DNA from: an archaeon
Lineage (GTDB): Archaea > Iainarchaeota > Iainarchaeia > CSSED10-239
Direction of reading: 5' to 3'
Assembly (NCBI GenBank): GCA_029563035.1
Contig: JAKQTP010000193.1
Span: 1 to 33,754 of the forward strand
Length of the DNA stretch: 33,754 nt
Shown: one piece after another, positions 1 through 33,754 of the stretch
Layout: every line of letters starts with the position of its first letter
How positions within the stretch are numbered: position 1 is the stretch's first letter
Made by a program: the position numbers and the translations under genes
The notes under the pieces: generated by a model
Seen by the model: the letters and a program-made list of their open reading frames with translations, nothing else
Database searches by the model: none
Told to the model about the DNA's origin: nothing

Positions 1-141
1 GAAAGATTTACATTATCTCCATGAGCGTTAATTTCGGTAGTTCCTACCGTATTTACTGCTAAATTCATTAAGTTAATACCAGCATTAACATCTCTATGGT
101 GATGAGCTTTACAAATAGGGCAATCCCATTCTCTATCACTC
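1..141. repeat. Terminal direct repeat, left copy (contig closes into a circle)
   Basis: These 141 bases are identical to 33614-33754. An exact overlap of this length at both ends of a contig is what a de Bruijn assembler leaves when it walks round a circle with k=141, so it is most likely an assembly overlap and not a biological terminal repeat. The unique molecule is then 33,613 bp, circular or circularly permuted. It lies inside a tnpB gene, whose reading frame is continuous when the ends are joined. Confidence 0.95.
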
Positions 142-1187
142 AATGTTAATTCTGTATTTTTGTAACCACAGTTAGAACAAGTTTTTGTACTGGCGTACCA
201 TTTATCAGCAAATACTAAATGCTTCCCATACCAGTCACACTTGTATTCTAACATATTTACAAAAGAACCCCAAGCATTATCAAGAGTAGATTTACCAAGA
301 TTTAAACATTGACTCATAGCTTGCATATTTAAAGTTTCAATTCCGATAATATCATATTCCTTAACTAACTTAGTTGAAAGTTTTTGTTGAAAATCCTTTC
401 TTGAATTAGATATTTTTTCATGAACTCTGGCAACTTTGATTCTTTGCTTATTCCTTCTATTACTTCCTTTCTCTTTTCTTGATAAGATTCTTTGTTCTTT
501 AGTTAATTTCTTTTCATACAATCTATAGAATTTCGGATAACCAGAAATTTGATTTTCATTACTGGTGAACAAATTCTTAGAATCATAGTCTAAACCTACA
601 GGTTTTGAATTATAATTAACTTGATGAATTTTTGTGTCTATATATTCTTCAACAAGAATACAAGCAAAGTATTTACCTGTTGGAGTTTTCTCTACTGTTA
701 CGTTTTTTATAATTCCTTCAAATGTTCTATCATCTGAATATTTTACCCATTTCAGTTTCGGTAATTTTAGTCTTTTATTTTCAAATACAATATCGATATT
801 ATTATTCACATTAACTGTTCTGTAGGTATGCTTATTTGTTTTCTTACTTTTGAATTTGGGGAAACCTATCCTTTTACCCTTCCTTTTACCAGAAATAGAC
901 TTAAAAAAGTTTCTATATGCCATCTCTAAATCTACTCTTGATTGTTGAAGAGCAACACTATCCACTTCTTTAAGCCATTCAAATTCCTGTTTGTACTCTT
1001 TCTCTGTTGTATATTTATGAGAATATAATTTTTCTTTATCATCTTTTAAATTAAAATATACCTCTTGTCTTTCAGCAAGCATTTTATTGTAAACAAAGCG
1101 AGTACACCCAAAAGTCTTATGTAAAAGAATCTCTTGCTCTTTATTTGGATACAAACGAAATTTATATGTTTTTAATATATGTCTCAT
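1..1187 (-). CDS. tnpB: TnpB RNA-guided nuclease, copy 1 (N-terminal and main part; 3' end at right edge of window)
   Basis: Reading leftward from ATG at 1185-1187 and across the contig junction into 33586-33613 gives one 404-aa protein. The N-terminus has the usual TnpB/OrfB start (KTYKFRLYPNKEQE, residues 6-19). RuvC motifs follow: GLDYDSKNLF with Asp200, IGIETLNMQAM with Glu284 and HHHRDVNAGINL with Asp366. A four-cysteine zinc ribbon (CSNCG, then CPIC) lies between the last two. All catalytic residues are present, so it looks active; the usual GIDxG is GLDYD here. It is a close paralogue of copy 3 (27100-28344) and only distantly similar to copy 2. In the family, TnpB uses an RNA from its own 3' end to cut DNA beside a short TAM. 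No tnpA is present, so it cannot transpose on its own. Confidence 0.93.
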   Translation of the reverse strand, partial: MRHILKTYKFRLYPNKEQEILLHKTFGCTRFVYNKMLAERQEVYFNLKDDKEKLYSHKYTTEKEYKQEFEWLKEVDSVALQQSRVDLEMAYRNFFKSISGKRKGKRIGFPKFKSKKTNKHTYRTVNVNNNIDIVFENKRLKLPKLKWVKYSDDRTFEGIIKNVTVEKTPTGKYFACILVEEYIDTKIHQVNYNSKPVGLDYDSKNLFTSNENQISGYPKFYRLYEKKLTKEQRILSRKEKGSNRRNKQRIKVARVHEKISNSRKDFQQKLSTKLVKEYDIIGIETLNMQAMSQCLNLGKSTLDNAWGSFVNMLEYKCDWYGKHLVFADKWYASTKTCSNCGYKNTELTLSDREWDCPICKAHHHRDVNAGINLMNLAVNTVGTTEINAHGDNVNL

Positions 1188-1226
1188 TTCTTTTATTAGT
1201 AATTTTATACCGAATAAGTTATTTAA

Positions 1227-1254
1227 AATATAATGATAATTAGTAAAAAGTCAA
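1227..1254 (-). promoter_or_regulatory. Sigma70-type promoter of tnpB copy 1
   Basis: On the minus strand TTGACT (1254-1249) and TATATT (1232-1227) are separated by 16 bp, 40 bp upstream of the tnpB ATG and downstream of the left-end hairpin. The same TTGACT/TATATT pair occurs at the matching place in element 3. This is inferred from sequence only. Confidence 0.55.
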
Positions 1255-1482
1255 GTCAAAAAGTTACATTTTTTAGCCCCTTGTATCCACGCCCTGAAGA
1301 GACGTGGTTTTACGGGGCTGGTGATAAATAATAAAATTTTATATTATAAAGTATATAAAAAATCAATTTTTTTCTTATTTTTATAAAAAAAATTAAAAAC
1401 ATCCATAAAAATATAAAATATATTCTATAATTAGAAATGTATAAAATAAGTCGGAGGACAATAATCTCAAGGAGAATATATA

Positions 1483-1755
1483 ATGTTACAAGAAGGTATA
1501 TTATTAAGTATGATAAGATCAGCAGTTGATAGTCATGATGAACAAGAAATTAAAAAAAGAAAAAAATTAGTTATAGAAATATTAGAAAAAGAGATGATAG
1601 AAAAATATTCTAATAGCTATTCTGAAAAACAATTAAAAAGAGAAATAAAAGATATGAAAAGAAAAATGAATATAGAGATAGATAAATATATAGAAAAACA
1701 AATTCAGATAAGGGATTATATGGAAGAATATTTTAAAAAAAATGTTTTAAGTTAA
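1483..1755 (+). CDS. Small highly charged coiled-coil protein, function unknown
   Basis: This 90-aa protein is the first gene of the rightward early module. The start is supported by AAGGAG eight bases upstream of ATG. It is rich in Lys and Glu, with heptad-like runs from residue 20 to 80 (KKRKKLVIEILEKEM, KQLKREIKDMKRKMN), so an extended coiled coil is likely. No membrane segment, cysteine motif or recognisable family is seen. It lies between the two divergent TnpB elements and just before the structured leader of the replication-like gene, so an early regulatory or DNA-associated role is possible, but nothing in the sequence shows it. Codon use (very A-rich) matches the neighbouring early gene. 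Confidence 0.75.
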   Translation: MLQEGILLSMIRSAVDSHDEQEIKKRKKLVIEILEKEMIEKYSNSYSEKQLKREIKDMKRKMNIEIDKYIEKQIQIRDYMEEYFKKNVLS

Positions 1756-1814
1756 AGATTTTTTTAAAAATAGTAAGAGGAAATGAATGAAAAGATATAA
1801 TTAAATGAAAACGT

Positions 1815-1925
1815 GGGACTATTAAAACTCATCCCTTTAATAGTTTCATGAAACTCAACAAGGCGATAGGTAAGGGCGGGATGAAACCAGAAATGGTTGC
1901 TCTTATCTACCGCCTATTTTTTTAG
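1815..1925 (+). ncRNA. Structured leader RNA with possible pseudoknot and intrinsic terminator/attenuator
   Basis: Hairpin 1 is a perfect 9-bp stem, ACTATTAAA (1818-1826) with TTTAATAGT (1836-1844), loop ACTCATCCC. Hairpin 2 pairs AGGCGATAGGTAAG (1861-1874) with CTTATCTACCGCCT (1902-1915), allowing one mismatch and one G-U, and is followed by seven T. Its loop holds a nested AACCA-GAAA-TGGTT hairpin. TCATCCC in loop 1 (1829-1835) is exactly complementary to GGGATGA in loop 2 (1878-1884), so the loops can kiss. A 14-bp palindrome AGTTTCATGAAACT (1842-1855) sits between. The terminator ends at the ribosome binding site (AGGAG, 1924-1928) of the next gene. This suggests attenuation or pseudoknot control of that gene, as in plasmid rep leaders; the function is inferred. 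Confidence 0.6.
1848..1925 (+). CDS. Possible 25-aa leader peptide coupled to the downstream gene
   Basis: An ATG at 1848 opens a 25-codon frame (ends ALIYRLFF) that runs through the whole second hairpin. It stops at TAG 1923-1925, which overlaps the AGGAG ribosome binding site of the 1937 gene. Plasmids of the IncI/IncB type use a coupled leader peptide in the same position. No Shine-Dalgarno sequence precedes this ATG and the frame may be a by-product of the hairpin, so support is weak. A second tiny frame, MKTWDY at 1805-1825, lies just upstream. Confidence 0.25.
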   Translation: MKLNKAIGKGGMKPEMVALIYRLFF

Positions 1926-1936
1926 GAGTTAAAATT

Positions 1937-2950
1937 ATGGGAAAAACAGAAAAACAACACAGTGAGCAACTAATACCCTTCTTATTAGAAGAGAATAGTG
2001 ATGGTTACCCTGTAATAGCATTTAGTCCAACATTAGCTTATATTATTGGAAATACTGAAGCGTCATTAGCTTTACAATCAATCTTCTATAGCTGGCAGAA
2101 GCAATTTGGTGGTCATAAAGAATTTACTAAATTTAAAAGATCAATAACCAGTGAAGAAAAACATCGCGATGTTGCTGAGGATAGTTCAAGGACATTAAAA
2201 ACGTTCTGTGAAGAGTTTTGCTGGAAGAAAGATAAAGCTAAAAGAATTCTTAATCTTATCTCCTGTAAGAAAGGTGAAGAATATAAACATCCAATGCCTT
2301 TCGTTTCATATTTCAATACACGCTATGGTATGATGTGGGATGTTAATAAAGAATTCGCACAGCAATTTATCAATGAGGTTTATAAACAAGGTAATGATAT
2401 TCCTGAAAGATTAGACCGTGATGTTATATTAAAAATTGCTAAAGAAATAAGAACTAAATTATATCCCCAGCAAACGGAAAATACGATTCATAACGCGGAA
2501 AACGAGAATCAGGAATGGCAAAAAGCCATTTATGAATCGCGAAAATCGATTCCAGAATGCGGAAAAACAGAATCAGACATGGCGAAAACCGGATATGATA
2601 TTGAGGATATAGAGGCTATAGAGGCTTGTGGAGGAATATTGAGTACTGTTGAGGTAGGTGCTAAATGCACCTATTTAGAAAATAATTCTTCTTCAACTCC
2701 TTCTAAAGAAAAAGAAAAGAATTCACTTAGTACTTCTTCGCCTACGGCGAATAAACACTTATCGCTTGTTTCTTCGCCACCTGCTACCGACACCAAACCA
2801 AAACCAGTAATTCAACCAGAAACTGATTACTGTAGTTTTTGTGGATCACCACTAAATGCATATTCCAGTGTCTGCCCTCAATGTAAACGGAGCGTAATTG
2901 AAAATTATCACCATCCCCGTAAAACCACGCCCTTCAGGGCGTGGATATAA
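1937..2950 (+). CDS. Putative replication/DNA-binding protein with C-terminal zinc ribbon (3' end altered by TnpB element)
   Basis: This 337-aa protein starts at ATG after AGGAG with an eight-base spacer. Residues about 25-140 contain the pattern IIGNTEASLALQSIFYSW followed by a basic helical segment, which resembles winged-helix phage and plasmid replication proteins. Residues about 245-290 are a Ser/Thr/Pro-rich linker. A CxxC-x10-CxxC zinc ribbon (CSFCG, CPQCK) follows near residue 300. It is the only replication candidate in the genome. The last 13 residues (HHPRKTTPFRAWI) are translated from the left end of TnpB element 2. Removing the element gives ...VIENYME and a TAG stop, so the native protein was slightly shorter. 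A transcription regulator is the main alternative. Confidence 0.6.
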   Translation: MGKTEKQHSEQLIPFLLEENSDGYPVIAFSPTLAYIIGNTEASLALQSIFYSWQKQFGGHKEFTKFKRSITSEEKHRDVAEDSSRTLKTFCEEFCWKKDKAKRILNLISCKKGEEYKHPMPFVSYFNTRYGMMWDVNKEFAQQFINEVYKQGNDIPERLDRDVILKIAKEIRTKLYPQQTENTIHNAENENQEWQKAIYESRKSIPECGKTESDMAKTGYDIEDIEAIEACGGILSTVEVGAKCTYLENNSSSTPSKEKEKNSLSTSSPTANKHLSLVSSPPATDTKPKPVIQPETDYCSFCGSPLNAYSSVCPQCKRSVIENYHHPRKTTPFRAWI

Positions 2951-4302
2951 GGGGCTAAAAAACTATGATTTTAATCCATATTTTAGTATAAATACTTGTA
3001 ATCGGCTTTAATAGTATATAATCACTTGTAATTGGATTTTACTTTTTGGGAGAGTTATATTATATTTAAGTTAATATTATAAGAATCAAGAGATTATTAT
3101 AAAACATGATACAAAAAGGTTATAAATACAGAATTTACCCAAACAGAGAACAAGAGATTTTTTTAATGAAATCTTTCGGCTGTGTGAGGTTTGTTTATAA
3201 TTGGGCATTAGCCTTAAAAAATCATGAATATACTAACACTAAGAAATCATCTAATTATTATGAACTTAATAAAAAATTACCCGAATTAAAAAACCAATAT
3301 GATTGGTTGACTGAAATATATTCTCAAACTATACAAGCATCTTTGAGAAATCTTGATAATGCTTTTACTCGATTTTTTAAAAAACAAGGAAAATACCCAA
3401 ATTTTAAAAGTAAACATAAAAATGATTTTAGTTTTCAAATACCTCAAGGAGCTAAAATTGCAGAAAATAAATTATATATTCCGAAAGTTAAAGAAGGGAT
3501 TAAGATAAAGTTAAGTAGAGATTTTGATGGAAAAATAAAAACTACTACTATATCAAAAAATCCATCAGGTCAATATTTTGTAACTTTTTTAATTGAATCA
3601 AATGAAAATATAAAAGAGCCAGAAGAATTTAATATTGATACAACTATAGGGATTGATCTCGGCATAAAAGAATTTGCTGTTATATCCGATGGTAGAAGAA
3701 TTGAAAATCCAAGACATCTTAGAAAGAAATTAAAAAGATTAAAAAAGATTCAACAAAGACATTCAAGAAAACAGAAGGGAAGTAGTAATAGGAAGAACCA
3801 TAGAATAAAAGTAGCAAAACAACATTTAAAAGTTAAAAATCAAAGACAAGATTTTTTACATAAACTGACTCACAAACTAACTCACGATAACCAAGTGAGT
3901 TCTATATGTATTGAAGATTTAGCAGTATCTAATATGATTAAAAATCATAAGTTAGCTCAAGCAATTTCAGATGTAGGGTGGAGAGAGTTTAGAAGGCAAT
4001 TAGATTATAAATGTAAATGGTATGGAAAGAATTTAATTGTAATTTCAAGATTTGCACCTTCTTCAAAACTCTGTCCTGAGTGTGGTCAAATAAATCAAAA
4101 ATTGACTTTAGCTAATAGAGAGTGGACTTGTGATTGTGGAGTTAAACACGATAGAGATTTGCTTGCTTCAAACAATATTAAAAATTTTGGAATAGAAAAG
4201 TACCGTAGGGACTACGGAAACTCAAACGCCTGTGGAGAGAATATGGTAGTTGACAGACTCGTTGAAACAGGAATCCATGCCCTTTAGGGCGTGGTAGTTC
4301 AA
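2909..4302 (+). mobile_element. TnpB-only IS200/IS605-type element 2
   Basis: The left end begins after AATTAT (2903-2908). It folds as a perfect 8-bp stem CCACGCCC/GGGCGTGG (2925-2932 with 2937-2944) closed by TTCA, bracketed by CCCC (2915-2918) and GGGG (2951-2954). The right end is TAGTTCAA at 4295-4302 after a hairpin. Deleting 2909-4302 joins GAA AAT TAT to ATG GAA TAG in frame with the upstream gene, which supports both ends. The tnpB sequence differs strongly from copies 1 and 3, yet its left end is nearly identical to that of element 1, which it faces in inverted orientation. Confidence 0.85.
3106..4287 (+). CDS. tnpB: TnpB RNA-guided nuclease, copy 2
   Basis: This 393-aa protein has the TnpB/OrfB N-terminus (YKYRIYPNREQEIF) and a complete RuvC triad: Asp184 in GIDLGIKEF, Glu270 in ICIEDLAVSNM and Asp351 in HDRDLLASNNI. 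The zinc ribbon is CPECG at 323-327 and CDCG at 342-345, so the second half is CxC and not CxxC. The stop codon lies inside the terminal omegaRNA hairpin (TTTAG at 4283-4287). A TTTACT-17 bp-TATATT promoter-like pair precedes the gene. It belongs to a different branch from copies 1 and 3, so at least two TnpB lineages entered this phage. No transposase accompanies it; it may now act as a free-standing homing nuclease. Confidence 0.93.
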   Translation: MIQKGYKYRIYPNREQEIFLMKSFGCVRFVYNWALALKNHEYTNTKKSSNYYELNKKLPELKNQYDWLTEIYSQTIQASLRNLDNAFTRFFKKQGKYPNFKSKHKNDFSFQIPQGAKIAENKLYIPKVKEGIKIKLSRDFDGKIKTTTISKNPSGQYFVTFLIESNENIKEPEEFNIDTTIGIDLGIKEFAVISDGRRIENPRHLRKKLKRLKKIQQRHSRKQKGSSNRKNHRIKVAKQHLKVKNQRQDFLHKLTHKLTHDNQVSSICIEDLAVSNMIKNHKLAQAISDVGWREFRRQLDYKCKWYGKNLIVISRFAPSSKLCPECGQINQKLTLANREWTCDCGVKHDRDLLASNNIKNFGIEKYRRDYGNSNACGENMVVDRLVETGIHAL

Positions 4303-4318
4303 ATGGAATAGGTAAATA
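4190..4318 (+). ncRNA. omegaRNA (reRNA) of TnpB copy 2 with guide
   Basis: The scaffold overlaps the tnpB 3' end. A stem CCGTAG-GGA-CTACGG lies at 4203-4217. The terminal hairpin CCATGCCC-TTTA-GGGCGTGG (4275-4294) is followed by TAGTTCAA and then flanking DNA starting ATGGAATAGG (from 4303), which would be the guide. All three elements share this layout with different stem sequences. The 5' limit is a guess. Confidence 0.7.
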
Positions 4319-4321
4319 ATT

Positions 4322-4762
4322 ATGATTAATTCCAAAAATATAAAGAAAAAAAAGAAACAACAGTTAATTAGATATAAATATACTATCTATAGAGATGATA
4401 TTAGATTATTTTCCAAATTTATTAAATGGGATGGATTTGCATGGGGCTTAAAAACTAATTCAGGAAAAGAGCTTGGAAAAATATTAGAATCTAATTTTGG
4501 AGATTTATATGCTACTATAGAAGAATATACTCCTGGTGGAAAAGAATTAATGTGCACTCTGGATTTCTCTTGTAAAAGTAAAATTACAAATAAATTACAT
4601 GGTCTTTCAGAAGATACATATGGATCAGAACAAAATATTATTTTTAATTCTACTAATATACATTGTTGGACACATTTAATTAAAAGAAGAGTAGTAGTTA
4701 TGGAAAGAGATGCTAAATTAGGTTATGGTATAGTAGCTGGATTTCAAGTTTGTAAGAATTAA
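4322..4762 (+). CDS. Hypothetical early protein, 146 aa
   Basis: The frame starts at ATG 4322 with a weak ATAGG nine bases upstream, and that ATAGG belongs to the original flank of TnpB element 2. The N-terminus is a basic stretch (IKKKKKQQ) followed by a mixed alpha/beta region with four cysteines (CTLDFSC, HCW, QVCKN) not arranged as a clear metal site. There is no signal peptide or membrane segment. Before the TnpB insertion it began about 10 bases after the 337-aa gene, so the two probably formed one early operon. I do not recognise a family. It ends just before the convergent terminator hairpin. Confidence 0.7.
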   Translation: MINSKNIKKKKKQQLIRYKYTIYRDDIRLFSKFIKWDGFAWGLKTNSGKELGKILESNFGDLYATIEEYTPGGKELMCTLDFSCKSKITNKLHGLSEDTYGSEQNIIFNSTNIHCWTHLIKRRVVVMERDAKLGYGIVAGFQVCKN

Positions 4763-4791
4763 AAAGAAGAGATATAATTTCTTATATCTCT
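4762..4791 (-). terminator. Intrinsic terminator of the leftward late operon
   Basis: A perfect 10-bp stem AGAGATATAA/TTATATCTCT (4768-4777 with 4782-4791) has a four-base loop. On the minus strand it is followed by TCTTTTT, a U-rich tail, just after the last late gene (4824). On the plus strand no U-run follows. Confidence 0.7.
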
Positions 4792-4823
4792 AAAGTATGA
4801 AGAAGGGAGTAAATAAATGAAAG

Positions 4824-5045: not shown

Positions 5046-5130
5046 TTTTAACTCGTTAGATCAGCTTAGTGCTTAATAGTGCTGCGGTATTAGAACCTAT
5101 ATTCTACTTTTAAGTTATTACAATAAAGTT

Positions 5131-5469: not shown

Positions 5470-5492
5470 AATATGCGACCTTCATTTAATAT

Positions 5493-5627: not shown

Positions 5628-5631
5628 TCCA

Positions 5632-6345
5632 TTATCCTAAAGCTATTGCCATTGCTATTGCATAAATTTTTGTAGCATATATAGATGTATCTGGTGCAGG
5701 TCCTGTCCATCCGGTGTATCCTGTAGGTCCTGTAACCATTGAGTCTGCTCCAGTTGGACCAGTATACCCTGTGTATCCTGTATAACCTGTTGGTCCTGTT
5801 GATCCCAAGGAACCTGCAACACCATCATTTCCTGCTGGTCCCGTGGGTCCTGTTGCTCCTTTAAGACCCCTACCTCCACCTGACCCATTTACTCCGTTTT
5901 TACCATCTTTTCCAGAAGGACCGGTTGGCCCTGTGTCACCTTTATCTCCTTTAGGACCTACTATTGAGATCCCCGCTTCACCTTGTGGTCCAGTTGGCCC
6001 AGTTTTTCCATCTGCTCCCTGAGCTCCTGTTGTTCCATTTGTTCCATCTTTTCCAGGAGATCCGTCTTTGCCTTTTTCTCCTGTTTCTCCTTTCTGTCCA
6101 TCTTTACCATCTATTCCATTAAGTCCATCTTTACCATTTATTCCATCAATACCGTTAATACCATCTTTACCGGGATCTCCTTTATCTCCTTTAGGACCGG
6201 TTGGACCAGTATCTCCTTTAGGACCAGTGGGTCCAATTGGACCTATTTCTCCTTGTAAACCAGTAGGTCCAGTAGGACCAATAAGTGCTTCTGGTTCTCG
6301 TTTAACTCCTTTAGATAATATATATTTAGTTTCTATAGTTTTCAT
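5632..6345 (-). CDS. Collagen-like phage protein
   Basis: Of 237 residues, about 22-217 form Gly-X-Y triplets. The first part has Lys/Asp-rich charged triplets ([18 protein letters not shown]) and the last part Thr/Tyr-rich ones ([10 protein letters not shown]). Collagen triple helices of this kind act as trimeric stalks in phage fibres and surface proteins. The N-terminal 20 residues and the C-terminal 20 ([14 protein letters not shown]) are non-collagenous caps, the latter hydrophobic. It follows the main fibre gene and the 131-aa gene, so it is probably a second fibre or a capsid/tail decoration. Charged GKDG triplets differ from the Thr-only repeats of the large fibre, so the two arose separately or diverged. 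Confidence 0.85.
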
Positions 6346-6747: not shown

Positions 6748-9700
6748 TTATTTTATCCTTATTATATACAAACATGATAAATATAATGGTCTATTTTCTA
6801 AAGATGTGGGTGAAGCAGTGCCATAGTTTCCAGAATCACCGGTATAAGCGGCAACATCTACAGAGTGAGTATGCGAAGCACTGTTATTGCCTGTATTTCC
6901 TGTTCCAGAAGCTGTTGTTTCAAGATAATATTGATCATAACTACCGGCTGTTTGTTGAAGAATTTTGTCTTTTGTTCCGTTGCTTGCTCCAGTATGGCCA
7001 GACCGTATATAGCTTCCCGCCGTTGTTGTATTAGTCAAATACGGCGATATATGTTTATGGCTCGGTCCTGTGTGTGTATGTGTTACACTGTTATCGCCTG
7101 ATGTGACAGAAGCATGGTCATGATTTATGCTATGTAAATGTTGCGGTATATGATCTACTGTAAGAGTGTTTGATGTTGCACCACCGATAGAACCAACAGC
7201 AGTTGAACCCATTAAAAATCTACTATCTGTTATATTTGGAAGATATCTTCCAGCTCCTACCCAAATTGGTGATTCTGCATCATTACACTCAGAACCATCA
7301 CAAACTTTCCATTCATCTGGTAATGTTAAACCAGTTGATGTAAAAGTACTATTAGAACTATTTGTATAATATCCCGGTGCATATGCTATAATAGAACCTA
7401 TTGGAGGTAAACCAACTGTTATAGATGGACCAGTAGGACCTGTATAACCAGTTGGTCCAGTTACATTTGAATCTGCACCAGTATAACCAGTATAACCAGT
7501 TGGTCCAGTTACATTTGAATCTGCACCAGTATATCCAGTGTAACCAGTTGGTCCAGTTACATTTGAATCTGCACCAGTATATCCAGTGTATCCTGTGTAT
7601 CCTGTATAACCAGTATATCCGGTAGGACCTGTTGGTCCTGTAACAGTAGATGCTGCACCAGTATAACCGGTAGGACCTGTTGGTCCTGTAACAGTAGAAT
7701 TAGCTCCCGTATAACCTGTATAACCAGTTGGTCCTGTATAACCAGTTGGTCCTGTTGGACCAGTTATGGTAGAATCAGCACCAATTGGTCCAGTATAACC
7801 TGTATAACCAGTTGGTCCAGTTATGGTAGAATCAGCACCAATTGGACCGGTAGGACCAGTATATCCTGTTGCACCAGTATACCCAGTTGGACCAGTTACT
7901 GTTGAATCTGCTCCTGTATAACCAGTATATCCAGTTGGTCCAGTATAACCAGTTGGTCCTGTAACAGAACTAATAAGATCTACAAGAGACGATATAGGTA
8001 TCTTCTTAGATGTAGTCTGTGATATATTTTCTAATTCAGATGTTGGTACTACAAATCCAGATGATGTATATAATGCTTTTCCGCTTATTATTCTTAAATC
8101 ATCGTAATATCTTGCTCCATCTATATATGGTCCATCATTATATGTATTAAATCCAACAGTATCTGTTAAAGAAGTTGTACTAAAATCAAATTCTCCGCTA
8201 ATTGTCTGTTGAGCTTCTAAACTACCATCTAAATAAAGTCTATAAATATCGTTCTCTCTTGTTAGAGCTATATGATGAACAGTATAAAAAGGTATTGAAG
8301 ATGATCCAGTAATAGTAGATGTGTCACCTGAAGATTTAATATAACAGATAACTGTACCAGTAGATGTATAAGAAGAAGTACCTATGTATATATATGAATC
8401 TTGTGTACTATAAATACTTAATAATAGAGGTAATTGTGAAGGATAATCATTACTACCTTCTCCAGGAGAAGATTCCAAATAAGTATAAAATTCTAAAGTA
8501 AAATCTATATTAGATATATCACCTAATATAGTACTTGTTTCTGCATAATTTAGACCACTTGATGTATATACAACAGTATTACCATGAATAGAAATGGTAT
8601 TACTTATATTAGATGATATTCCAAAACTCCAAATATTATTAGTATCATCTGTATAAATATCATCACCGTTTGTTCCTTCAAACTTTGCTAATAATAAAGT
8701 ATTATATTCTTCTGTAACTTCAGAATCACTTATCATTACCTGATCATTTATAACTGGAACAGATTTAACTTCAGTTGCTTGAATCCAAGATGCTCCATCT
8801 GTTCCTTGTGGACCTGTATAACCAGTTGGTCCTGTTGGACCAGTTACATTTGAATCTGCACCAGTATAACCAGTATATCCAGTTGGTCCAGTCGGTCCTG
8901 TATAACCAGTTGCTCCAGTAGCAGATGCTTCACCTGCTGCTCCTGTATAACCAGTTGGTCCAGTATAACCAGTATATCCAGTTGGTCCAGTTATATCAGA
9001 ATCTGTTCCAGGTGCTCCTGTATAACCAGTTGGTCCAGTATAACCAGTTGCTCCGGTTGGTCCTGTATAACCAGTTGGACCGGTAGGACCAGTTGGTCCT
9101 GTATAACCAGTATAACCAGTTGCTCCAGTATTTGTAGCAGAACCGTCCATTCCTGTATAACCGGTTGGTCCTGTATAACCTATATTACCAGATCTTGCAA
9201 ATTGAAGATAAATACCTGAATAATTAGTAAAATTACCAGATCCTGTTATATAAGTAACAGCTATCTTTCTATATGTTGTAGCATCTGTTACAGCAGTAAC
9301 TTTATATATATTTACACGAGATACATTAGATACTAATGTAAGAATACCGCATTCTTCTGGTGATCCACCATCATCCCATGTATCCATATATGTTGAGGTA
9401 TTTATAGATGGATAGGATGAAGTATTATTAATATATATCATAGTAACTGCTGACGCAGTTGTATTATTCATTCTTATAAAACCAGATCCAGGATTAGCAT
9501 CTGTGGTATTTGTAGAATAAATATAACTATATGAATATATATCGGTAGGACCAGTATAACCCGTATAACCAGTTGGTCCTGTAACAGTAGATGCTGCACC
9601 AGTATAACCAGTGTATCCTGTGTATCCTGTATAACCAGTTGGTCCTGTATTGCCCCTTGGTCCAGTATAACCTGTATAACCAGTAGGACCTATTGGACCA

Positions 9701-9843
9701 CCAGATGGACCTGTATAACCAGTTGGTCCTGTTACACCACCTTCGAGTATTGCTGATATTACCTTATCAGCAGTATTTGTCCAATTACCACCAGTATAAC
9801 CAGATACATTAAAAGCGTCGTATACTTTATCAGGAACTGCCAT
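6748..9843 (-). CDS. Large collagen-like tail fibre with LamG-like and collar domains
   Basis: The 1031-aa protein is modular. After an N-terminal attachment segment (1-35) come collagen-like GPTGYTG runs (about 36-100). A beta-domain follows (about 103-220), then a second collagen run to about 350. A concanavalin/LamG-type domain lies at about 370-605 ([29 protein letters not shown]) and a third collagen run at about 625-835. The C-terminal 195 residues form a phage tail-collar domain ([50 protein letters not shown]) with His-rich HxH pairs. It probably binds host surface carbohydrate. The Y positions are almost all Thr, as in O-glycosylated bacterial collagens. The GGTCCTGTATAACCAGTT-type DNA repeats should recombine easily. 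Confidence 0.9.
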
Positions 9844-10866: not shown

Positions 10867-11508
10867 TTACTTAACCTCTTTCTTATGTCTATATATTCTT
10901 TCTTTCTCTTCTTCTGTGAATTTATATCCTAATTTATGTTTATTTCCTTTCATTTTTTCACTCATATATTCTTTCCATTCATTAGAATGTAATGGATATT
11001 TTTTACCAGTTAATTTTTTACTATGAGAATCTTTTAATTCTTTAGCTTTATCTTCTCCATATAATTCTATAAAAGTTTTTCCTTTTTTATTAGATGGTCT
11101 TCCTTTCATTTTTTCGCTTTGATTCTTTCTTTGTTCTTCAGAACGAATAGAACCTTTAGCACATTTATTACCTTGTAATCTAATACTCTGTTCTTTCTTT
11201 TGTTTATCTGTCCAGGTATATCCTACACAACCATCACCACCTTTAGTTAAATTATAAAGATTATTAGTAGCTCTATAGTTTGCAATAAAGAATTTTTCCA
11301 TTTGATTCATCTCTTCTTTATCCAAACATTCAAAAATTACTTCCCAAGTAAAGTTTTCTGGTTTGTACTTCTTAAATGCTCTATGAAAATATGTTTTTGG
11401 ATTATTACTTTCATAATTATGATCTTTTTTTCTATCTTTAAGAGATTTAATAGTTTTACCTATATATAAATCTCCAGTAAGAATATTTGTTGCTTTATAG
11501 ATTATCAT
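10867..11508 (-). CDS. GIY-YIG homing endonuclease
   Basis: The 213-aa protein has the GIY-YIG core at its start: IIYKATNILTGDLYIGKT (residues 2-19, with Tyr4 and the YIG at 15-17), a following Arg/Lys-rich helix, a conserved FFIANYR segment with Glu just before it, and a Asn-Leu-Thr-x-Gly-Gly-x-Gly end. Lys-rich segments follow (EEQRKNQSEKMKGR, SEKMKGNKH), typical NUMOD3-like DNA-binding repeats. The gene overlaps the upstream baseplate gene by four bases and stands alone without an intron, so it is a free-standing homing gene of the SegA type. Its Lys-rich composition differs from its Thr/Ser-rich neighbours, which marks it as an insertion. Confidence 0.92.
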   Translation of the reverse strand: MIIYKATNILTGDLYIGKTIKSLKDRKKDHNYESNNPKTYFHRAFKKYKPENFTWEVIFECLDKEEMNQMEKFFIANYRATNNLYNLTKGGDGCVGYTWTDKQKKEQSIRLQGNKCAKGSIRSEEQRKNQSEKMKGRPSNKKGKTFIELYGEDKAKELKDSHSKKLTGKKYPLHSNEWKEYMSEKMKGNKHKLGYKFTEEEKERIYRHKKEVK

Positions 11509-26977: not shown

Positions 26978-27094
26978 TTATTTTTTCTTACTCTTTTTAG
27001 GTGCATGCTTTACTATTTTTGACCAATCTTCACTAAATATCCATTTCATAGATTCTGGTGCATTCTTCTTACTACTGTATTTATTTCTTAACAT
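26978..27094 (-). pseudogene. 3' part of a small gene split by TnpB element 3
   Basis: This 38-codon frame (MLRNKYSSKKNAPES..., ending KKSKKK) begins exactly where TnpB element 3 ends. The other part is at 28488-28523. Joining the two across the element gives one uninterrupted 50-aa frame, MKYCKCNTNCIY plus MLRNKYSS.... The fragment could still be translated from its internal ATG, since AGAGG from the element's hairpin lies eight bases upstream. The whole product would be Cys-rich at the start and Lys-rich at the end; its function is unknown. Confidence 0.7.
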
Positions 27095-27205
27095 TTGAAC
27101 TACCTCTGCCTAAAGGCAGAGGATTCTTCTTTCAACGAGGTTGCTTGTGCCAAACACTCTCCAGAAGCGTTAATTCCCGTAGTTCCTACGGTACTAATTT
27201 CTAAT
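27077..27205 (-). ncRNA. omegaRNA (reRNA) of TnpB copy 3 with guide
   Basis: On the minus strand a CCGTAG-GAA-CTACGG stem (27091 side numbering 27177-27191) is followed by the terminal hairpin CCTCTGCC-TTTA-GGCAGAGG (27122-27103). TAGTTCAA comes next, then flanking DNA ATGTTAAGAAATAAATAC as the guide. The stem sequences differ from copies 1 and 2 but pairing is kept, which supports a functional RNA. The 5' limit is a guess. Confidence 0.7.
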
Positions 27206-28344
27206 TTTTCTTTAGCAAAATTCATAAGGTTAATTCCAGCGTTCTGATCTCTATGATGATGAGTCCCACAAATAGGGCAATCCCATTCACGATCAGAAAG
27301 AGTAAGCTCAACATTCTTGTATCCACAAACATTACACATCTTTGAAGAAGCATAATATTTGTCAGCAAACACAAGGTGCTTACCGTACCAGTCACACTTA
27401 TACTCTAACATACTCGTAAATGAACCCCAAGCATTATCAAGAGTAGATTTAGCAAGATTTAAACATTGACCCATTGCTTGCATGTTAAGAGTTTCAATTC
27501 CGATTACATCATAAGTTTCTATCAGATAAGTGGACAGTTTTTGATGAAAATCCTTTCTTGAATTTACTATCTTCTCATGCACTTTAGCAACTTTAATTCT
27601 TTGCTTGTTTCTATTATTTGAACCTTTAACTTTTCTTGATAATCTTCTTTGCTCTTTTGCTAACTTCTTTTCATACTTTCTATAGAATCTTGGATACCCA
27701 GATACTTTGTTTTCGTTATCTGTGAAAAGATTCTTTGAATCGTAGTCTAAACCAATGCACCTCGACTGAGAAGAAACTTGATGAATTTTAGTTTCAATTT
27801 TTTCTTCTACCAAGATGCACGCAAAATATTTTCCAGTAGAAGTCTTTTCTACTGTTACGTTTTTAATTATGCCGTTGAATGTTCTATCATCTGAATACCT
27901 CAACCATTTTAATTTAGGTAATTTTAATCTCTTATTTTCAAAAACGATATCAATATTATTATTAACATTTATTGTTCTAAATGATTGTCTTGTTTCTTTC
28001 TTTGATTTGAATTTAGGATAAGAAACTTTTCTACCTTTTCTCTTCCCGGATATAGAATCAAAGAAGTTTTTATAAGCAGTTTCCAGATCAACCCTTGCCT
28101 GTTGAACTGCGATTGAGTCAACTTCTGAAAGCCATTCAAAATCCTGTTTATATTGTTTTTCAGTAGTGTACTTATATGCCTTTAACGCAACTTTATCATC
28201 TTTTAACCTTTCATAAGTTTCTTTTCTTTCAGCAAGCATATGATTGAATACAAAACGAGTACAACCAAAAGTCTTATTCAAAAGAACTTCTTGGGTATTA
28301 TTAGGGTATATCCTAAATTTATATGTTTTGTAAATCGTTTTCAT
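27100..28344 (-). CDS. tnpB: TnpB RNA-guided nuclease, copy 3
   Basis: The 414-aa protein is a close paralogue of copy 1. It carries KTYKFRIYPNNTQE at 6-19, Asp200 in GLDYDSKNLF, Glu284 in IGIETLNMQAM and Asp366 in HHHRDQNAGINL. Its zinc ribbon has cysteines at 337, 340, 356 and 359. All RuvC residues are intact. The stop codon TAG lies in the TAGTTCAA right end, after the terminal hairpin, so the last 20 residues are encoded by the omegaRNA region. A TTGACT-17-TATATT promoter precedes it. It sits between small structural genes of the late operon and can be read through by it. Confidence 0.93.
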   Translation of the reverse strand: MKTIYKTYKFRIYPNNTQEVLLNKTFGCTRFVFNHMLAERKETYERLKDDKVALKAYKYTTEKQYKQDFEWLSEVDSIAVQQARVDLETAYKNFFDSISGKRKGRKVSYPKFKSKKETRQSFRTINVNNNIDIVFENKRLKLPKLKWLRYSDDRTFNGIIKNVTVEKTSTGKYFACILVEEKIETKIHQVSSQSRCIGLDYDSKNLFTDNENKVSGYPRFYRKYEKKLAKEQRRLSRKVKGSNNRNKQRIKVAKVHEKIVNSRKDFHQKLSTYLIETYDVIGIETLNMQAMGQCLNLAKSTLDNAWGSFTSMLEYKCDWYGKHLVFADKYYASSKMCNVCGYKNVELTLSDREWDCPICGTHHHRDQNAGINLMNFAKEKLEISTVGTTGINASGECLAQATSLKEESSAFRQR

Positions 28345-28381
28345 ATTATATTAGTAATTTTATTTACAATAACCTCTTTAA

Positions 28382-28410
28382 AATATATAGTATATTTTTA
28401 CAAAAGTCAA
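28382..28410 (-). promoter_or_regulatory. Sigma70-type promoter of tnpB copy 3
   Basis: TTGACT (28410-28405) and TATATT (28387-28382) on the minus strand are 17 bp apart, 38 bp upstream of the tnpB ATG. The same pair, at the same place, occurs in element 1, which suggests an element-borne promoter that works outside the late operon. Confidence 0.6.
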
Positions 28411-28457
28411 GAAAAAGTTACAAAAATTACTTTTATTTAGCCAAATTCATCCCTCCC

Positions 28458-28523
28458 CTAAAGGGAAGGGTCTTCTTTGGCAAGAGGATAAATACAATTA
28501 GTATTGCATTTACAATATTTCAT
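28458..28523 (-). pseudogene. 5' part of a small Cys-rich gene truncated by TnpB element 3
   Basis: ATG at 28523 overlaps the previous stop (ATGA) and follows the strong site GAGGAGG. The first 12 codons are native (MKYCKCNTNCIY). The frame then runs into the element's left end for nine more codons (PLAKEDPSL) and stops at a TAG inside the hairpin. The rest of the gene is at 26978-27094. Confidence 0.7.
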
Positions 28524-28807
28524 TTTTCCTCCTCTCTGTCATAAACTTCTAATGTAACACTATCTCCTGTCCATTGACCAGTAGCAGTGGATACTCTTGC
28601 ATTAAATTGATATATTCCTGCTTGATCAAAATCTCCATCTATAGTAGTATATACTATACTATGTGTTCCAGATAATGCTCCTGACCATGTTTCTTCTGTT
28701 TCATCTGGTTTAATTACTAAAATTTCAAAGGTTGTACCTGATGTTATAGTATTAACACAATCTATAGTTAATACATGATTATAATCGTCTTTATAGATTT
28801 TGCTCAT
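28520..28807 (-). CDS. Ig-like phage structural protein (BppU-like N-terminal fold)
   Basis: The 95-aa protein follows the pattern of phage Ig-like domains: IYKDDYNHVLTIDC at the start, then TTFEILVIKPDETEETWSGAL, a tyrosine-strand YTTIDGDFDQAGIYQFNARVS and TGQWTGDSVTLEVYD at the end. Domains of this type sit on baseplates, fibres or capsids and bind surface sugars. It lies in a cluster of small structural genes upstream of the terminase, and its stop overlaps the next start. Confidence 0.72.
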   Translation of the reverse strand: MSKIYKDDYNHVLTIDCVNTITSGTTFEILVIKPDETEETWSGALSGTHSIVYTTIDGDFDQAGIYQFNARVSTATGQWTGDSVTLEVYDREEEK

Positions 28808-28813
28808 TATATA

Positions 28814-29026
28814 CTAATCCTCTTGTAGAATTAACTCTGAATTTAAAGATATAGTAGAATCTATTTCTGAATTTAAAGATATAGTAGAATCTATTTCAGA
28901 TGTTAAAGAATACGTCATAAGAATGGTAGATGTTAGTGTAATACTACCATATAGTAAAGCCTGTATTCTACTAATAAATCCTTTAGTAATAATTTTAGTA
29001 GATGCAAAACCTTTGGTTATAATCAT
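28814..29026 (-). CDS. Small protein with a tandem 10-residue repeat
   Basis: The 70-aa product begins with two similar basic segments (IITKGFASTK, IITKGFISR) and ends with two identical ten-residue units SEIDSTISLN plus degenerate copies on either side. The DNA holds two identical 30-bp units (28837-28866 and 28867-28896), a recent tandem duplication. The MIITKGF start is common in small phage head or neck-associated proteins of unknown role. It overlaps the upstream gene by four bases. Confidence 0.65.
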   Translation of the reverse strand: MIITKGFASTKIITKGFISRIQALLYGSITLTSTILMTYSLTSEIDSTISLNSEIDSTISLNSELILQED

Positions 29027-29709: not shown

Positions 29710-30041
29710 ATCACCTTTTCTTCTACAGCGGAAACTGCTTCATTTACTGCTTTTATATTTACAGCATCACCAAAATTATGTGTAATTTTTCCATCAGCAT
29801 ATTTGGTTCTGTATGTTGGAAATTCTCCTATTTCGCACCATTTGCTATTAACCTTGTCATACCACATATATCTTATATCAGGAATAGCATCTATAATTTC
29901 TTGACGTAGAGTTTTTACATCCTTGTCTTTAAATTCTATTGCTTCTGCTGTAGCTATCCCTACAGGTTCACCGTCTTCTCTCTGACCTAAAATACCACCT
30001 GTGGTTTTATCTATTATTAGTTGGCCATCTTTCTCCGTTGC
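29706..30041 (-). pseudogene. Structural-type gene lacking its 5' end (disrupted by a GC-rich island)
   Basis: An open frame of 111 codons ends at a TGA that overlaps the ATG of the next gene, so it is real coding sequence. It reads EKDGQLIIDKTTGGIL..., with a Trp-containing MWYDKVNSKWCEIGEF and a helical end. There is no start codon in frame until codon 60 or so, and a TGA blocks the frame at 30042-30044. Just upstream, a frame from ATG 30085 (MDRSASADGHAPQG...) is one base out of register. So the gene is either frameshifted, hit by the GC-rich insert, or needs a -1 shift. Confidence 0.65.
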
Positions 30042-30085
30042 TCACCTTGCGGGGCATGGCCGTCTGCCGAAGCAGAGCGGTCCAT
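30023..30085. other. GC-rich hairpin island
   Basis: In 30035-30083, 34 of 49 bases are G or C, against an AT-rich background. It contains GGCCAT/ATGGCC (30023-30028 with 30056-30061) as an inverted repeat. It also contains CCGTCTGC-CGAA-GCAGAGCGG (30060-30080), which on the minus strand is a stem closed by a UUCG tetraloop. The identity is unknown; a small palindromic mobile sequence or transposon end is possible. Confidence 0.6.
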
Positions 30086-30163
30086 TTATCTTATTTTTGG
30101 TATAATATATATTAATAAATAAGAAAGAATTAAATCTTTTTAAGTATATTTTTCACATAAATA
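30086..30163 (-). other. AT-rich intergenic stretch after the glycosyltransferase gene
   Basis: This stretch is A/T only in long runs. On the plus strand it contains GGTATAATATAT, and on the minus strand TATTATACC, either of which could be a -10 box, but no good -35 is present. I see no gene in it. Confidence 0.35.
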
Positions 30164-32467
30164 TTAATTAGGTTTTATAAAATTTTCTTGTAATTGAAAA
30201 CCATATTTTATAGATCTTTCTTTTAATAGTTTTCTATCATGTTCTAAATTTTCTTTATTATATGCTATAGTATATACTTCATCATATTCAACTGGGTAAT
30301 TACAAGTGAAAGGATGTTCATGAAATACTTTTGATTCTTCGCACCAAATATATTTATTTAACAATCTGCATCTTTCTGTTATTTCATTGTCTATACCACA
30401 GTGTTTATAATCTTCTAATCCATCCCAAAGACTATCTAAAAGTGTTCTGTGTATAAGAAAATGTGTAGCAAATTCTCCATGCCAGTACATATCATTTAAA
30501 CCAATAAGACCTATTTTATCTGTAAAATTAACTAACATTTTCATTACTGCTAAAAATAAAAAATCTTTCTGTGGTATTGTATCATTTCCTAAAAATAGGA
30601 TATAGTCTCCTTTGCTTTTATCAATACCTTTTCTTAAAGTTTTAGCAACACCTTGACGATTTTTAAAAGAATCGTGTTCCACAATTATTTCATAATTTGT
30701 ATAATTTGCATGTTCTCGTATTGCTGAGATACATCTGCGTAGTTTATCTTCTCGACCGAGTGTTGGTATAACTATGGATACTTTAGGAAACTCTATCATC
30801 CATTTATACCAGATACTATCGCACGTATTAACAACACCTAATTCTTCATCTACTGCTTTTTTAACATCTGGCCAAGCATCACAATAATCGTGACCACAAA
30901 GTAAAATACGTGCTTTATTTTTCCAAGCTTGTATATCTGACTTTACACCTTCGTATGTATGTTCACCATCTATAAAGATCATATCAAAAGAATTATCCAT
31001 ATATTCTAATGACGCATGTAAACTATCTTGTTTATTTATTTGTAGATTAGTGAAGTTTTTCATATTTTTTAAAAAGGCAGGATATACTAAATCTTTCTTA
31101 GCTTCTTGATGTCGATCATCTTCGTTTTTAGATCCTAAAAAGTGATCAATTGCAGTTACAACTCCTTTACATCCTGAACACAATGCGTGTGTGCTTCTAC
31201 CTTTCCAACTACCTATTTCTGCAATATAGTTAAAATATTTAGAGTAATTATATAAAAATTGTAATTCTGAAAAAGACATCCATCCTTCTATATTATTATC
31301 TGGATATTCAAAATAGTATTTAGTATCTCTTAAATATGTAGTATTTCTTGGTTGATATTCTAATGCTTTTAAAATATGTTCTTGTGCTTTATTTATATTA
31401 CCAAGCCATCCATAAGACCAATAGGCTAATTCATGTGGTATATTTTCATAGTGTTCTCGTTGATTTGCATAAAAACTACCCCATGGAATTTCCATAGCAG
31501 CTTTTGCTACACATAAGCATTTCTGTGGTTGGTTTAAAGATCTATAAACAGATCCTAATCTAAGAAGAGCTTCGTTTCTAAGAGGTTCATGATTCCATCC
31601 TTTCCAGTACCAATAAATTTGAGAATCTATATCTCCTAATTTACCATAACAATCTCCAATAAAGATCATAGATTGAGCTGCTTCAGTATTCCATTTATTC
31701 ATGGAAACATGACGAGTTAATTCTTTAATGGCACTTTTTGGTCTACCTGTCCATAATAATTCACGACCAAGATAATGGGAATTTCTATCATTATCTGGAT
31801 TTAAAAAACAATCCAAAGCAAGACCTTTTAAGTAGTTACCTCTGGGTGTTTCTGGATTCTGCCAATGCTCAAGAGTTATAATATTATTATCTACTCTTTT
31901 AGTAGATACAAAAGAAATACCAGGAAGTGGTTGTAATACCTCATGTACTATTCCTTTCCAGTATAATTTTTTTCTATTATAGAATTTACTTTGATCAAAT
32001 TGTATTGCTGGTTTTCCAAAGGGTGTATGTGAGAAAATAAAATTATAAACAAATTGCTCTACACCGGAGTCTATCATATTACAAATAGTAGATATATCTA
32101 AATAAGAATATACTTCATCACAGTCTTGATTTGAAATCATATCATTAGATGCAAGAGAAGCAGCATAATTTCTTGCATCTGCAAAAGCAAATAAAGAATC
32201 ACCTGATGAAACAATAGGAGATTCATCCATACAAAATTTTGAGTTGATTTCATGAACTTGTAAATCTGATAAATATATACGAAATTTATCTCCTACTGTA
32301 TCTACGATACAATTATAGTCTTTAGCTATTTTAACAGTATTATCAGTAGATCCTGTATCTACTATAATAATTTCACCGCCCTTATCTCTATAATTTTTTA
32401 GAGATTCTAACATTCTTGGTAAAGTTTTTTCTTCATTTTTTGCTATTAAAACAATAGAAAAATTCAT
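30164..32467 (-). CDS. Glycosyltransferase-TPR-methyltransferase-glycosyltransferase fusion
   Basis: From ATG 32467 (AGAGG 12 bases upstream) the protein has 767 residues; the longer frame upstream overlaps the previous gene and is not used. Domain 1 (1-230) is a GT2 transferase: FSIVLIAKNEEKTLPRML, IIIVDTGSTDNT and the metal-binding DCD in SNQDCDEVYS. A TPR-like helical region follows (about 235-390). Domain 3 (about 400-560) is a SAM methyltransferase of the macrocin-O-methyltransferase type: IAEIGSWKGRSTHALC, MIFIDGEHTYEGV, LLCGHDYCDAWPD. Domain 4 (about 570-767) is a second GT2: VSIVIPTLGREDKLRRCISAI, LFLGNDTIPQKDF. It may decorate phage fibres or the host surface; the substrate is unknown. 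Confidence 0.85.
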   Translation of the reverse strand: MNFSIVLIAKNEEKTLPRMLESLKNYRDKGGEIIIVDTGSTDNTVKIAKDYNCIVDTVGDKFRIYLSDLQVHEINSKFCMDESPIVSSGDSLFAFADARNYAASLASNDMISNQDCDEVYSYLDISTICNMIDSGVEQFVYNFIFSHTPFGKPAIQFDQSKFYNRKKLYWKGIVHEVLQPLPGISFVSTKRVDNNIITLEHWQNPETPRGNYLKGLALDCFLNPDNDRNSHYLGRELLWTGRPKSAIKELTRHVSMNKWNTEAAQSMIFIGDCYGKLGDIDSQIYWYWKGWNHEPLRNEALLRLGSVYRSLNQPQKCLCVAKAAMEIPWGSFYANQREHYENIPHELAYWSYGWLGNINKAQEHILKALEYQPRNTTYLRDTKYYFEYPDNNIEGWMSFSELQFLYNYSKYFNYIAEIGSWKGRSTHALCSGCKGVVTAIDHFLGSKNEDDRHQEAKKDLVYPAFLKNMKNFTNLQINKQDSLHASLEYMDNSFDMIFIDGEHTYEGVKSDIQAWKNKARILLCGHDYCDAWPDVKKAVDEELGVVNTCDSIWYKWMIEFPKVSIVIPTLGREDKLRRCISAIREHANYTNYEIIVEHDSFKNRQGVAKTLRKGIDKSKGDYILFLGNDTIPQKDFLFLAVMKMLVNFTDKIGLIGLNDMYWHGEFATHFLIHRTLLDSLWDGLEDYKHCGIDNEITERCRLLNKYIWCEESKVFHEHPFTCNYPVEYDEVYTIAYNKENLEHDRKLLKERSIKYGFQLQENFIKPN

Positions 32468-32474
32468 ACTATAT

Positions 32475-32990
32475 CTATACCTCTTTGTATTTTTTATATA
32501 GTTTTCTTTGTATATTCTGTATTCTACAGTATACTGCGCAGGAAGAAACATGATCTTCTTGTGCTATATCTATTTGTCTATAACCTTGAATTAATCTATT
32601 AATAGTAGATTGTTCTATAAGAGTTAATGCAGAATCCTTACAGATATCTTCAATTTGTATAATTGTACAAATTAAATCTTCGTGTTCTGGAAGATAAAGG
32701 AGTATATTCTGTAAATAATTACATTCTTTTTCATATAGTTTTTGATCTCGTGTGCATTTGTATTTTTGATTATGACATTTCCATTTTAATTGAATAACAT
32801 AATAATGCCAGAAATCTTTACCAGAAAAAAGAGATGAATCAAAAATATCTGCTACCTCACATAATAAAAGTAATGCTTCTTGTATCCAATCTTCTTTCTC
32901 GTATTGAACCCTTAATTGTGATAACTTTCTATATAAATTAGTAGCATAATCTGTAGTTTTAAGAATTAATTCTGGTGTTACTTCTTGCAT
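32475..32990 (-). CDS. Sigma-70-like transcription factor, copy 2
   Basis: The 171-aa protein contains YEKEDWIQEALLLLCEVADIF near residue 29, which resembles sigma region 2 (EDxxQEaxLxL). At the C-terminus it has a helix-turn-helix of region 4 type (RLIQGYRQIDIAQEDHVSSCAVYCRIQNIQRKLYKKY). It is a paralogue of the next gene upstream and shares a 30-bp identical DNA stretch with it (32874-32903 and 33421-33450). The product is expected to direct RNA polymerase to middle or late promoters. Its region 4 is less canonical than the other copy, and a non-sigma HTH regulator is the alternative. Confidence 0.68.
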   Translation of the reverse strand: MQEVTPELILKTTDYATNLYRKLSQLRVQYEKEDWIQEALLLLCEVADIFDSSLFSGKDFWHYYVIQLKWKCHNQKYKCTRDQKLYEKECNYLQNILLYLPEHEDLICTIIQIEDICKDSALTLIEQSTINRLIQGYRQIDIAQEDHVSSCAVYCRIQNIQRKLYKKYKEV

Positions 32991-33015
32991 AATAGTTTCT
33001 TCTAATAGTAAAATA

Positions 33016-33534
33016 TTATGTAGTATTTTTTTGATGATAATACTGCATTTTTTCTTTAGCTTTCTGTATATACAAATATACAGAAGATTGCTTATAGGTA
33101 TCTTTTTCTATAATCTCTTCTATAGAATACCCTAAGAGTAATAAATCTATATATTTTTTTTCTCTATTAGTTAAATTAGAATTTAGTAATACTTCTTCAA
33201 GATATATTTTATCTTCTTCTTTTTCTATGCATTCTAATGATTCTATAAAAGGTAATATTTCTTCCGATTGTGCTACTATATTTAATTTATGTTTATGGTT
33301 AGATAACCTATTGGATATACTCTGATGTAATCTATGTATAATATACTTTCGAAAGTTATTAGAATACTGGGGATATCTTTCTTCATTAAATCTTTGCGAT
33401 TCTATACATAAAAGTAATAGTGCTTCTTGTATCCAATCTTCTTTCTCGTACATATATCTCATATGTAAGTGTTTATACCATAATTTAGCTGCATAACTTG
33501 CTACAAATTCTATTTCATCTTTTATTAGTTCCAT
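33016..33534 (-). CDS. Sigma-70-like transcription factor, copy 1
   Basis: The 172-aa protein has YEKEDWIQEALLLLCIESQRF near residue 29 (region 2-like) and a region 4-like HTH at 125-170. That HTH contains LTNREKKYIDLLLLGYSIEEIIEKDTYKQSSVYLYIQKAKEKM in the usual order: LTxRExxY, a glycine turn, then a recognition helix. This is the pattern of ECF and small phage sigma factors. It is the first gene of the late operon. The ATG is 14 bases after the empty site of TnpB element 1, whose insertion separates the gene from its native promoter. Confidence 0.75.
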   Translation of the reverse strand: MELIKDEIEFVASYAAKLWYKHLHMRYMYEKEDWIQEALLLLCIESQRFNEERYPQYSNNFRKYIIHRLHQSISNRLSNHKHKLNIVAQSEEILPFIESLECIEKEEDKIYLEEVLLNSNLTNREKKYIDLLLLGYSIEEIIEKDTYKQSSVYLYIQKAKEKMQYYHQKNTT

Positions 33535-33548
33535 ATTTTCTCTTTACT

Positions 33549-33665
33549 TTGAACTACCAGCCCCTAAAGGAGCTGGATTCTCACTTCATTGACAACTACT
33601 TTCAACCGAAATTGAAAGATTTACATTATCTCCATGAGCGTTAATTTCGGTAGTTCCTACCGTAT
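33549..33665 (-). ncRNA. omegaRNA (reRNA) of TnpB copy 1 with guide (guide continues to about 33531)
   Basis: On the minus strand a CGGTAG-GAA-CTACCG stem (33662-33648, also present at 49-35 in the left terminal copy) is followed by the hairpin CCAGCTCC-TTTA-GGGGCTGG (33576-33557). TAGTTCAA comes next, then guide sequence AGTAAAGAGAAAATATGG, which is the leader and start codon of the sigma-like gene. Compared with copies 2 and 3 the base pairs change on both sides, which supports a conserved structure. Confidence 0.7.
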
Positions 33666-33754
33666 TTACTGCTAAATTCATTAAGTTAATACCAGCATTA
33701 ACATCTCTATGGTGATGAGCTTTACAAATAGGGCAATCCCATTCTCTATCACTC
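33586..33754 (-). CDS. tnpB: TnpB copy 1, C-terminal part (continues at left edge of window)
   Basis: This frame ends at TGA 33586-33588 (last residues VESSCQ) and is the 3' end of the tnpB gene described at 1-1187. Bases 33614-33754 repeat 1-141, so the frame joins without a break when the contig is closed. The end shares the NAHGDN and INA segments with copy 3. It overlaps the start of the omegaRNA. Confidence 0.93.
   Translation of the reverse strand, partial: SDREWDCPICKAHHHRDVNAGINLMNLAVNTVGTTEINAHGDNVNLSISVESSCQ
33614..33754. repeat. Terminal direct repeat, right copy
   Basis: This is identical over 141 bases to 1-141 and should be counted only once in the genome. Confidence 0.95.

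Follow-up and report, generated by a model that had tools for sequence, protein, structure and literature searches.

How three TnpB-only elements came to lie in one small phage genome, and what keeps them there, is the question raised by the 33,754-base stretch of archaeal assembly DNA analysed here (the window). Its first and last 141 bases are identical (33614-33754 repeats 1-141), and from this exact terminal overlap we take the circular unit to be 33,613 bp, with element A crossing the contig junction. The unit encodes a terminase (PF04466) and portal, major head, sheath and baseplate-like proteins (Pfam, PHROGs), a gene content that points to a contractile-tailed phage. Its three IS200/IS605-type elements, A (1388 bp), B (1394 bp) and C (1393 bp), make up 12.4% of the unit. 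Judged from their sequences, they have probably been moved by a transposase acting in trans and are probably maintained by guide-directed cutting of empty sites.

A first-pass annotation of the window had described three TnpB-only elements of 1388-1394 bp, each directly 3' of (A/T)TTAT, with the phage's own flanks as guides and about 12 percent of the genome given over to them. Lengths, motifs and all three guides agree with that description (Table 1), and protein domains, RuvC residues and right ends bear out what the elements are. The putative target-adjacent motif (TAM), [A/T]TTAT, begins at 0.96% of genome positions; that all three elements should adjoin it by chance has a probability of about 9e-7, an indicative figure, as the element ends were first placed by eye. 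No Y1 transposase (tnpA) was detected with Pfam at E 1e-3 in 40 of the 42 open reading frames (ORFs) taken as genes, smaller ORFs lying outside the scan; the remaining two are fibre-like and scaffold-like by PHROGs. With tnpB and, on this evidence, no tnpA, the elements belong to what we take to be the IS1341 type.

TnpB B and TnpB C match OrfB_IS605, Cas12f1-like_TNB and HTH_OrfB_IS605 above the Pfam cut-off. TnpB A, itself outside the Pfam scan, is 77% identical to TnpB C, and its 99% database neighbour (P0241) carries all three domains. The solved TnpB structure 8bf8 is matched at E 3.5e-80 by C and 1.1e-67 by B, and 8h1j is also a strong match (we presume both to be ISDra2 TnpB); the top-scoring chain, ahead of these two, is 9yyg, an AI-designed nuclease. 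The D-E-D residues of RuvC, the third of which we assume to be catalytic, are invariant in alignments A1 and A3, so that RuvC and TnpB domains occur together as in an OMEGA (obligate mobile element-guided activity) nuclease. Roles for the first two residues are given by the substitutions D191A and E278A (PMC8612924; this and other papers are cited for the portions consulted).

These residues also bear on whether the three proteins could be domesticated regulators that bind their targets without cutting, as TldR does. TldR descends from TnpB and has lost the nuclease through inactivation of RuvC. Phage-encoded, RNA-guided factors of this kind are on record (PMC13418256), but A, B and C keep the D-E-D residues and transposon right ends, and their guides are their own flanks; we consider such a role barely credible and reject it on the intact catalytic residues.

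The element ends argue for movement by TnpA. All three right ends finish in GGTAGTTCAA and share one layout, GAAT, a stem of 8 bp whose loop is TTTA, and then TAGTTCAA, and the left ends form an interrupted hairpin (by eye). Across A, B, C and the related element of phage contig L085 (only four sequences), 96.9% of stem cells are paired though the sequence varies. The stem covariation score was matched by none of 500 shuffles, and the count of four pairs changed on both sides by 35 of 500. In IS608, the right guide is GAAT and the right cleavage site TCAA (PMC5934647); the GAAT/TTCAA right ends of A, B and C agree with this code, and with their covarying stem they have the ends expected of the family.

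Of 178 fetched loci that match TnpB, 70 have a right end that we could recognise, and 52 of the 70 are viral. A hairpin lies at most 5 nt from TTCA in 50 of these 52, and in 41 of the 50 (duplicates included) the fourth guide base complements the last base of the cleavage site; in a filtered, deduplicated list, 36 of 40 obey the code (counted by eye). Among 18 right ends from non-viral genomes, 7 obey it, 1 breaks it and 10 have too distant a hairpin. As the search for left ends was confined to positions beside [AT]TTAT, the TAM frequency at the relatives is not independent. Because the code has been kept, it seems that a TnpA acting in trans could read the ends, and we infer that TnpA can, or until recently could, move A, B and C, though none was found in the phage.

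The mechanism that we propose has four steps. A TnpA Y1 transposase acting in trans, from the host or another element, would have inserted each element 3' of (A/T)TTAT with no target duplication, as the preserved end code suggests. TnpB would then be translated, and the 3' end of its message with about 16-20 nt of phage flank would become the omegaRNA, a step suggested by the biochemistry of the family and the structured right end (z -4.7 for A, -1.9 for B and -3.5 for C, that is, stable in A and C and modest in B). The TnpB-omegaRNA complex would cut the TAM and guide sequence in an element-free copy, and repair from a carrier copy would restore the element; the intact nuclease residues point this way, and cuttable empty sites come only from related elements of other phages. 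Co-infection or excision would finally bias inheritance towards carriers, as with a homing gene, an outcome that we favour on balance; homing during co-infection is likely. We know of no case in which TnpB opens a new site, and arrival at one should need TnpA from elsewhere, whose recognition code the ends keep.

Among the other [A/T]TTA[T/C] sites of the genome, none has fewer than 4 mismatches in 16 to any guide; thus each guide should target its own insertion site only. This narrow targeting runs against a reading in which the nucleases are weapons first, cutting co-infecting relatives to interfere with them. An intron-encoded homing endonuclease of phage PhiPA3 is reported to interfere in this way (PMC11620839), three different guides give three target sites, and a homing-endonuclease gene is present too; even so, we regard this reading as improbable.

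Maintenance by cutting predicts that element-free relatives hold cuttable sites, and related elements in two other phages allow a comparison. Bacillus phage BSP18 (Nitunavirus) has a related TnpB element between its portal and protease genes, with the same TTTAT and GAAT...TTCAA ends. It differs from the present phage in its size (156.7 kb) and its single matching place, and its TnpB is 45% identical to that of C. The joined flanks match 75 records, 65 of them over at least 80%; among the matches listed, 15 records, which include some phages twice, align without a break over the full 600 joined bases at 97.0-99.8%. Joining the flanks gives the sequence of relatives that are empty at that site, BSP15 and Grass among them, so the junction there is scarless and the empty sites exact. 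The five nearest of ten fetched relatives keep TTTAT and 20/20 guide positions, and one of these five, phiNIT1, has a TnpB element at a different site. For Enterococcus phage iF6, TTTAT and the guide are intact in three of four fetched relatives, the fourth matching at 16/20. By sequence, relatives of both phages thus show predicted cuttable sites. The expectation that the nucleases would cut element-free relatives therefore stands by analogy (the five nearest of ten for BSP18, three of four for iF6) and lacks a counterpart for this phage: the comparison of element presence across related phages that the first-pass annotation had proposed turned up no relative of it with an empty site.

Searches with the exact empty-site patterns of this phage gave no match to any, and a search with gene 1937-2950 found no phage relative. 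The terminase reaches 42% identity in its best IMG/VR segment, 33% in the best-ranked INPHARED row and 51% in the protein database, a truncated identical copy (P0121) apart. That copy ends at residue 348 and lies on a contig of 32,225 bp, exactly the length of the unit minus element A (33,613 - 1,388 = 32,225). The contig may be a version of the phage that lacks A, or the match may be a coincidence. A clean junction there, TTTAT followed directly by AGTAAAGAG, would mean that A is present in some members of the phage population and absent from others.

Several observations weigh against the proposed mechanism. The right-end fold of B is weak (equalled by 7 of 200 shuffles), no omegaRNA family was found at the Rfam gathering score, a right end could not be recognised at 108 of the 178 loci matching TnpB, and the end code is broken in 9 of the 50 viral right ends. 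The five more distant relatives of BSP18 match the guide at 16-19/20, four of them without the TAM. For iF6, no record matches the joined flanks at 80% coverage, and the two flanks are separated by 881 nt in relative TJE1; joined, they are no clean empty site, so the insertion would have come with a deletion or a later rearrangement. For the present phage, no close relative, with or without the elements, was found in IMG/VR, INPHARED, the protein database or the exact-pattern searches.

The insertion sites suggest that genes are largely spared. Element A is intergenic, and gene 33016-33534 starts 14 nt beyond it; B takes the place of the final two codons of gene 1937-2950 (frame read by eye) and stops 19 nt short of gene 4322-4762. 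Element C probably interrupts a 50-codon phage gene after codon 12; the start of this frame overlaps the stop of 28520-28807 (ATGA) and is preceded by AGGAGG. Lying inside a small reading frame, C means that not all three elements are between genes. Among 19 sites (16 viral relatives with A, B and C, after four of the 20 loci where a left end seemed to be present, L087, L193, L212 and L234, were dropped as spurious), 3-7 are intragenic, varying with gene-calling settings, compared with 74-81% of 2420 control TAM sites; adding BSP18 and phiNIT1 gives 7 of 21. A same-strand start lies within 40 nt of 8 of the 19 sites and of 92-121 of the 2420 controls when all start codons count; counting ATG alone leaves 6 of 19, and for non-intragenic sites only p is 0.03-0.11. 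Given the last two results, we make no claim of a gene-start preference.

Such avoidance of genes could stem from purifying selection alone, as it would if the elements were passive passengers, moved by a host TnpA, persisting by chance and using the nuclease only to restore themselves after excision, with no advantage in co-infection. Retention of an element at its site is the published role of TnpB (PMC11870625). That three elements fill 12.4% of so small a genome, and that each has kept its catalytic residues and right end, speaks against mere persistence, and we hold this account possible but unlikely.

An extension of the cutting model is quite improbable in our view: a stacked, multi-target drive, in which three TnpB guides and the homing endonuclease would purge or convert element-free siblings during co-infection and A may be polymorphic. 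The guide of A covers the start of the sigma-like gene, that of B ends at the start of gene 4322 and that of C begins at the in-frame ATG of the split gene; guides that cover or abut start codons mean that the messages of these neighbouring genes may be cut as well when the omegaRNA matures.

Table 1. Positions in the window of the three elements, their TAMs and guides, and the frame split by C
Feature	Position	Strand	Remarks
Element A, left-end part	1..1323	-	First ~395 residues of TnpB A and left-end hairpin
Element A, right-end part	33549..33754	-	Includes the 141-bp duplication; TnpB A frame ends at 33586
Element A, right end	within 33549..33754	-	GAATCCAGCTCC-TTTA-GGGGCTGGTAGTTCAA
TAM of element A, TTTAT	1324..1328	-	
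Guide of element A, AGTAAAGAGAAAATATGGAA	33529..33548	-	Start codon of gene 33016-33534 falls within it, from position 15 on
TAM of element B, ATTAT	2904..2908	+	
Element B, 1394 bp	2909..4302	+	
TnpB B, 393 aa	3106..4287	+	D184, E270 and D351 invariant in alignment A3
Guide of element B, ATGGAATAGGTAAATAATTA	4303..4322	+	Ends at the start of gene 4322-4762
Element C, 1393 bp	27095..28487	-	
TnpB C, 414 aa	27100..28344	-	D200, E284 and D366 invariant in alignment A1, which includes A and B
TAM of element C, TTTAT	28488..28492	-	
Guide of element C, ATGTTAAGAAATAAATACAG	27075..27094	-	
Small frame split by C, first 12 codons	28488..28523	-	
Split frame, other 38 codons and stop	26978..27094	-	First codon is ATG, in frame and at the right end of C

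Elements A and C are 73.5% identical over their whole length and B is distant, which makes three separate arrivals likelier than recent local copying; a recent local duplication is disfavoured by the same divergence. Element C is closer to the element of phage contig L085 (84.8% nucleotide identity) than to A, and L085 has no other detected gene in common with this phage across the 8.3 kb compared. No phage record holds a close copy of C covering 80% (27 records match), and no plasmid record one of B (23 match). Relatives of TnpB A and C reach 46-48% in genome_contigs (best 80 of 194). Contigs of element size (1.9 kb or less) account for 24 of the first 60 rows for TnpB A, 20 for TnpB B and 5 for the terminase, counts of listed representative contigs in lists that reach different identities. 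Named TnpB matches come from Patescibacteria, Pacearchaeota and Woesearchaeota; as TnpB moves too freely, these assign no host to the phage. Separately, a Gifsy-1 gene, which one record annotates as GipA and another as transposase, is a 41% match to TnpB B.

Other features of the genome stand apart from these elements. A homing endonuclease gene at 10867-11508 (-; phrog_314, and also phrog_5123, GIY-YIG motif) adjoins baseplate and fibre-like genes; without a Pfam match, it is a candidate fourth selfish nuclease. The adjacent genes 32475-32990 and 33016-33534 (-; 171 and 172 aa) have a common 45-nt stretch that is 89% identical, and the second has a weak sigma-factor match. Two collagen-like repeat proteins (5632-6345 and 6748-9843, -) are probably fibres, and a 795-aa protein (30164-32551, -) combines two glycosyltransferase stretches with a methyltransferase domain. 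Gene 28814-29026 contains a perfect 30-bp tandem duplication (28836-28895), and the leader before gene 1937 (about 1795-1925) looks structured by eye, with no Rfam match at the gathering score.

Neither the presence of TnpB in phages nor its occurrence there in several copies is new, as its frequency in phage records shows: of 50,697, 389 hold relatives of TnpB C and 396 relatives of TnpB B (E 1e-5), and some of the Lak and Microcystis phages listed have 3-5 TnpB places each. Published accounts likewise describe TnpB as frequently phage-encoded, with two TnpB-like genes in a jumbo phage (PMC12607003), and report Thermus phages in which CRISPR arrays have TnpB-like genes next to them (PMC11437467). 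Isolated tnpB elements have also been named (PMC8612924). Elements A, B and C resemble those of IS1341 type in that they have subterminal hairpins, lie 3' of a short motif and carry tnpB by itself, and differ in that three of them, from two TnpB lineages, share one 33.6-kb phage. Thus they are of a known kind, apparently unusual mainly in their density.

TnpB B and C match most of the ISDra2 protein, and TAM and flank-derived guide are likewise shared (PMC8612924). However, ISDra2 uses TTGAT (PMC5934647), whereas the phage elements adjoin (A/T)TTAT and lack tnpA, and their nuclease activity is predicted. In plasmids, a preprint describes a TnpB gene drive in which cutting of copies free of the insertion sequence biases inheritance (PMC11870625); we propose the same bias for the phage elements, known here from sequence alone. 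Homing endonuclease genes of phages should likewise cleave relatives that lack them and be copied into these, but TnpB is RNA-guided, its target is set by the insertion site, and new sites should need TnpA. The literature searched, as titles and the beginnings of abstracts with subscription journals mostly outside it, held no demonstration of TnpB homing between phages. An RNA-guided drive should gain most in mixed infections, where phages are present in many copies and recombine. The question of such a drive can be tested directly with this genome and, better still, with the Nitunavirus relatives, some of which carry an element at one intact site and others not.

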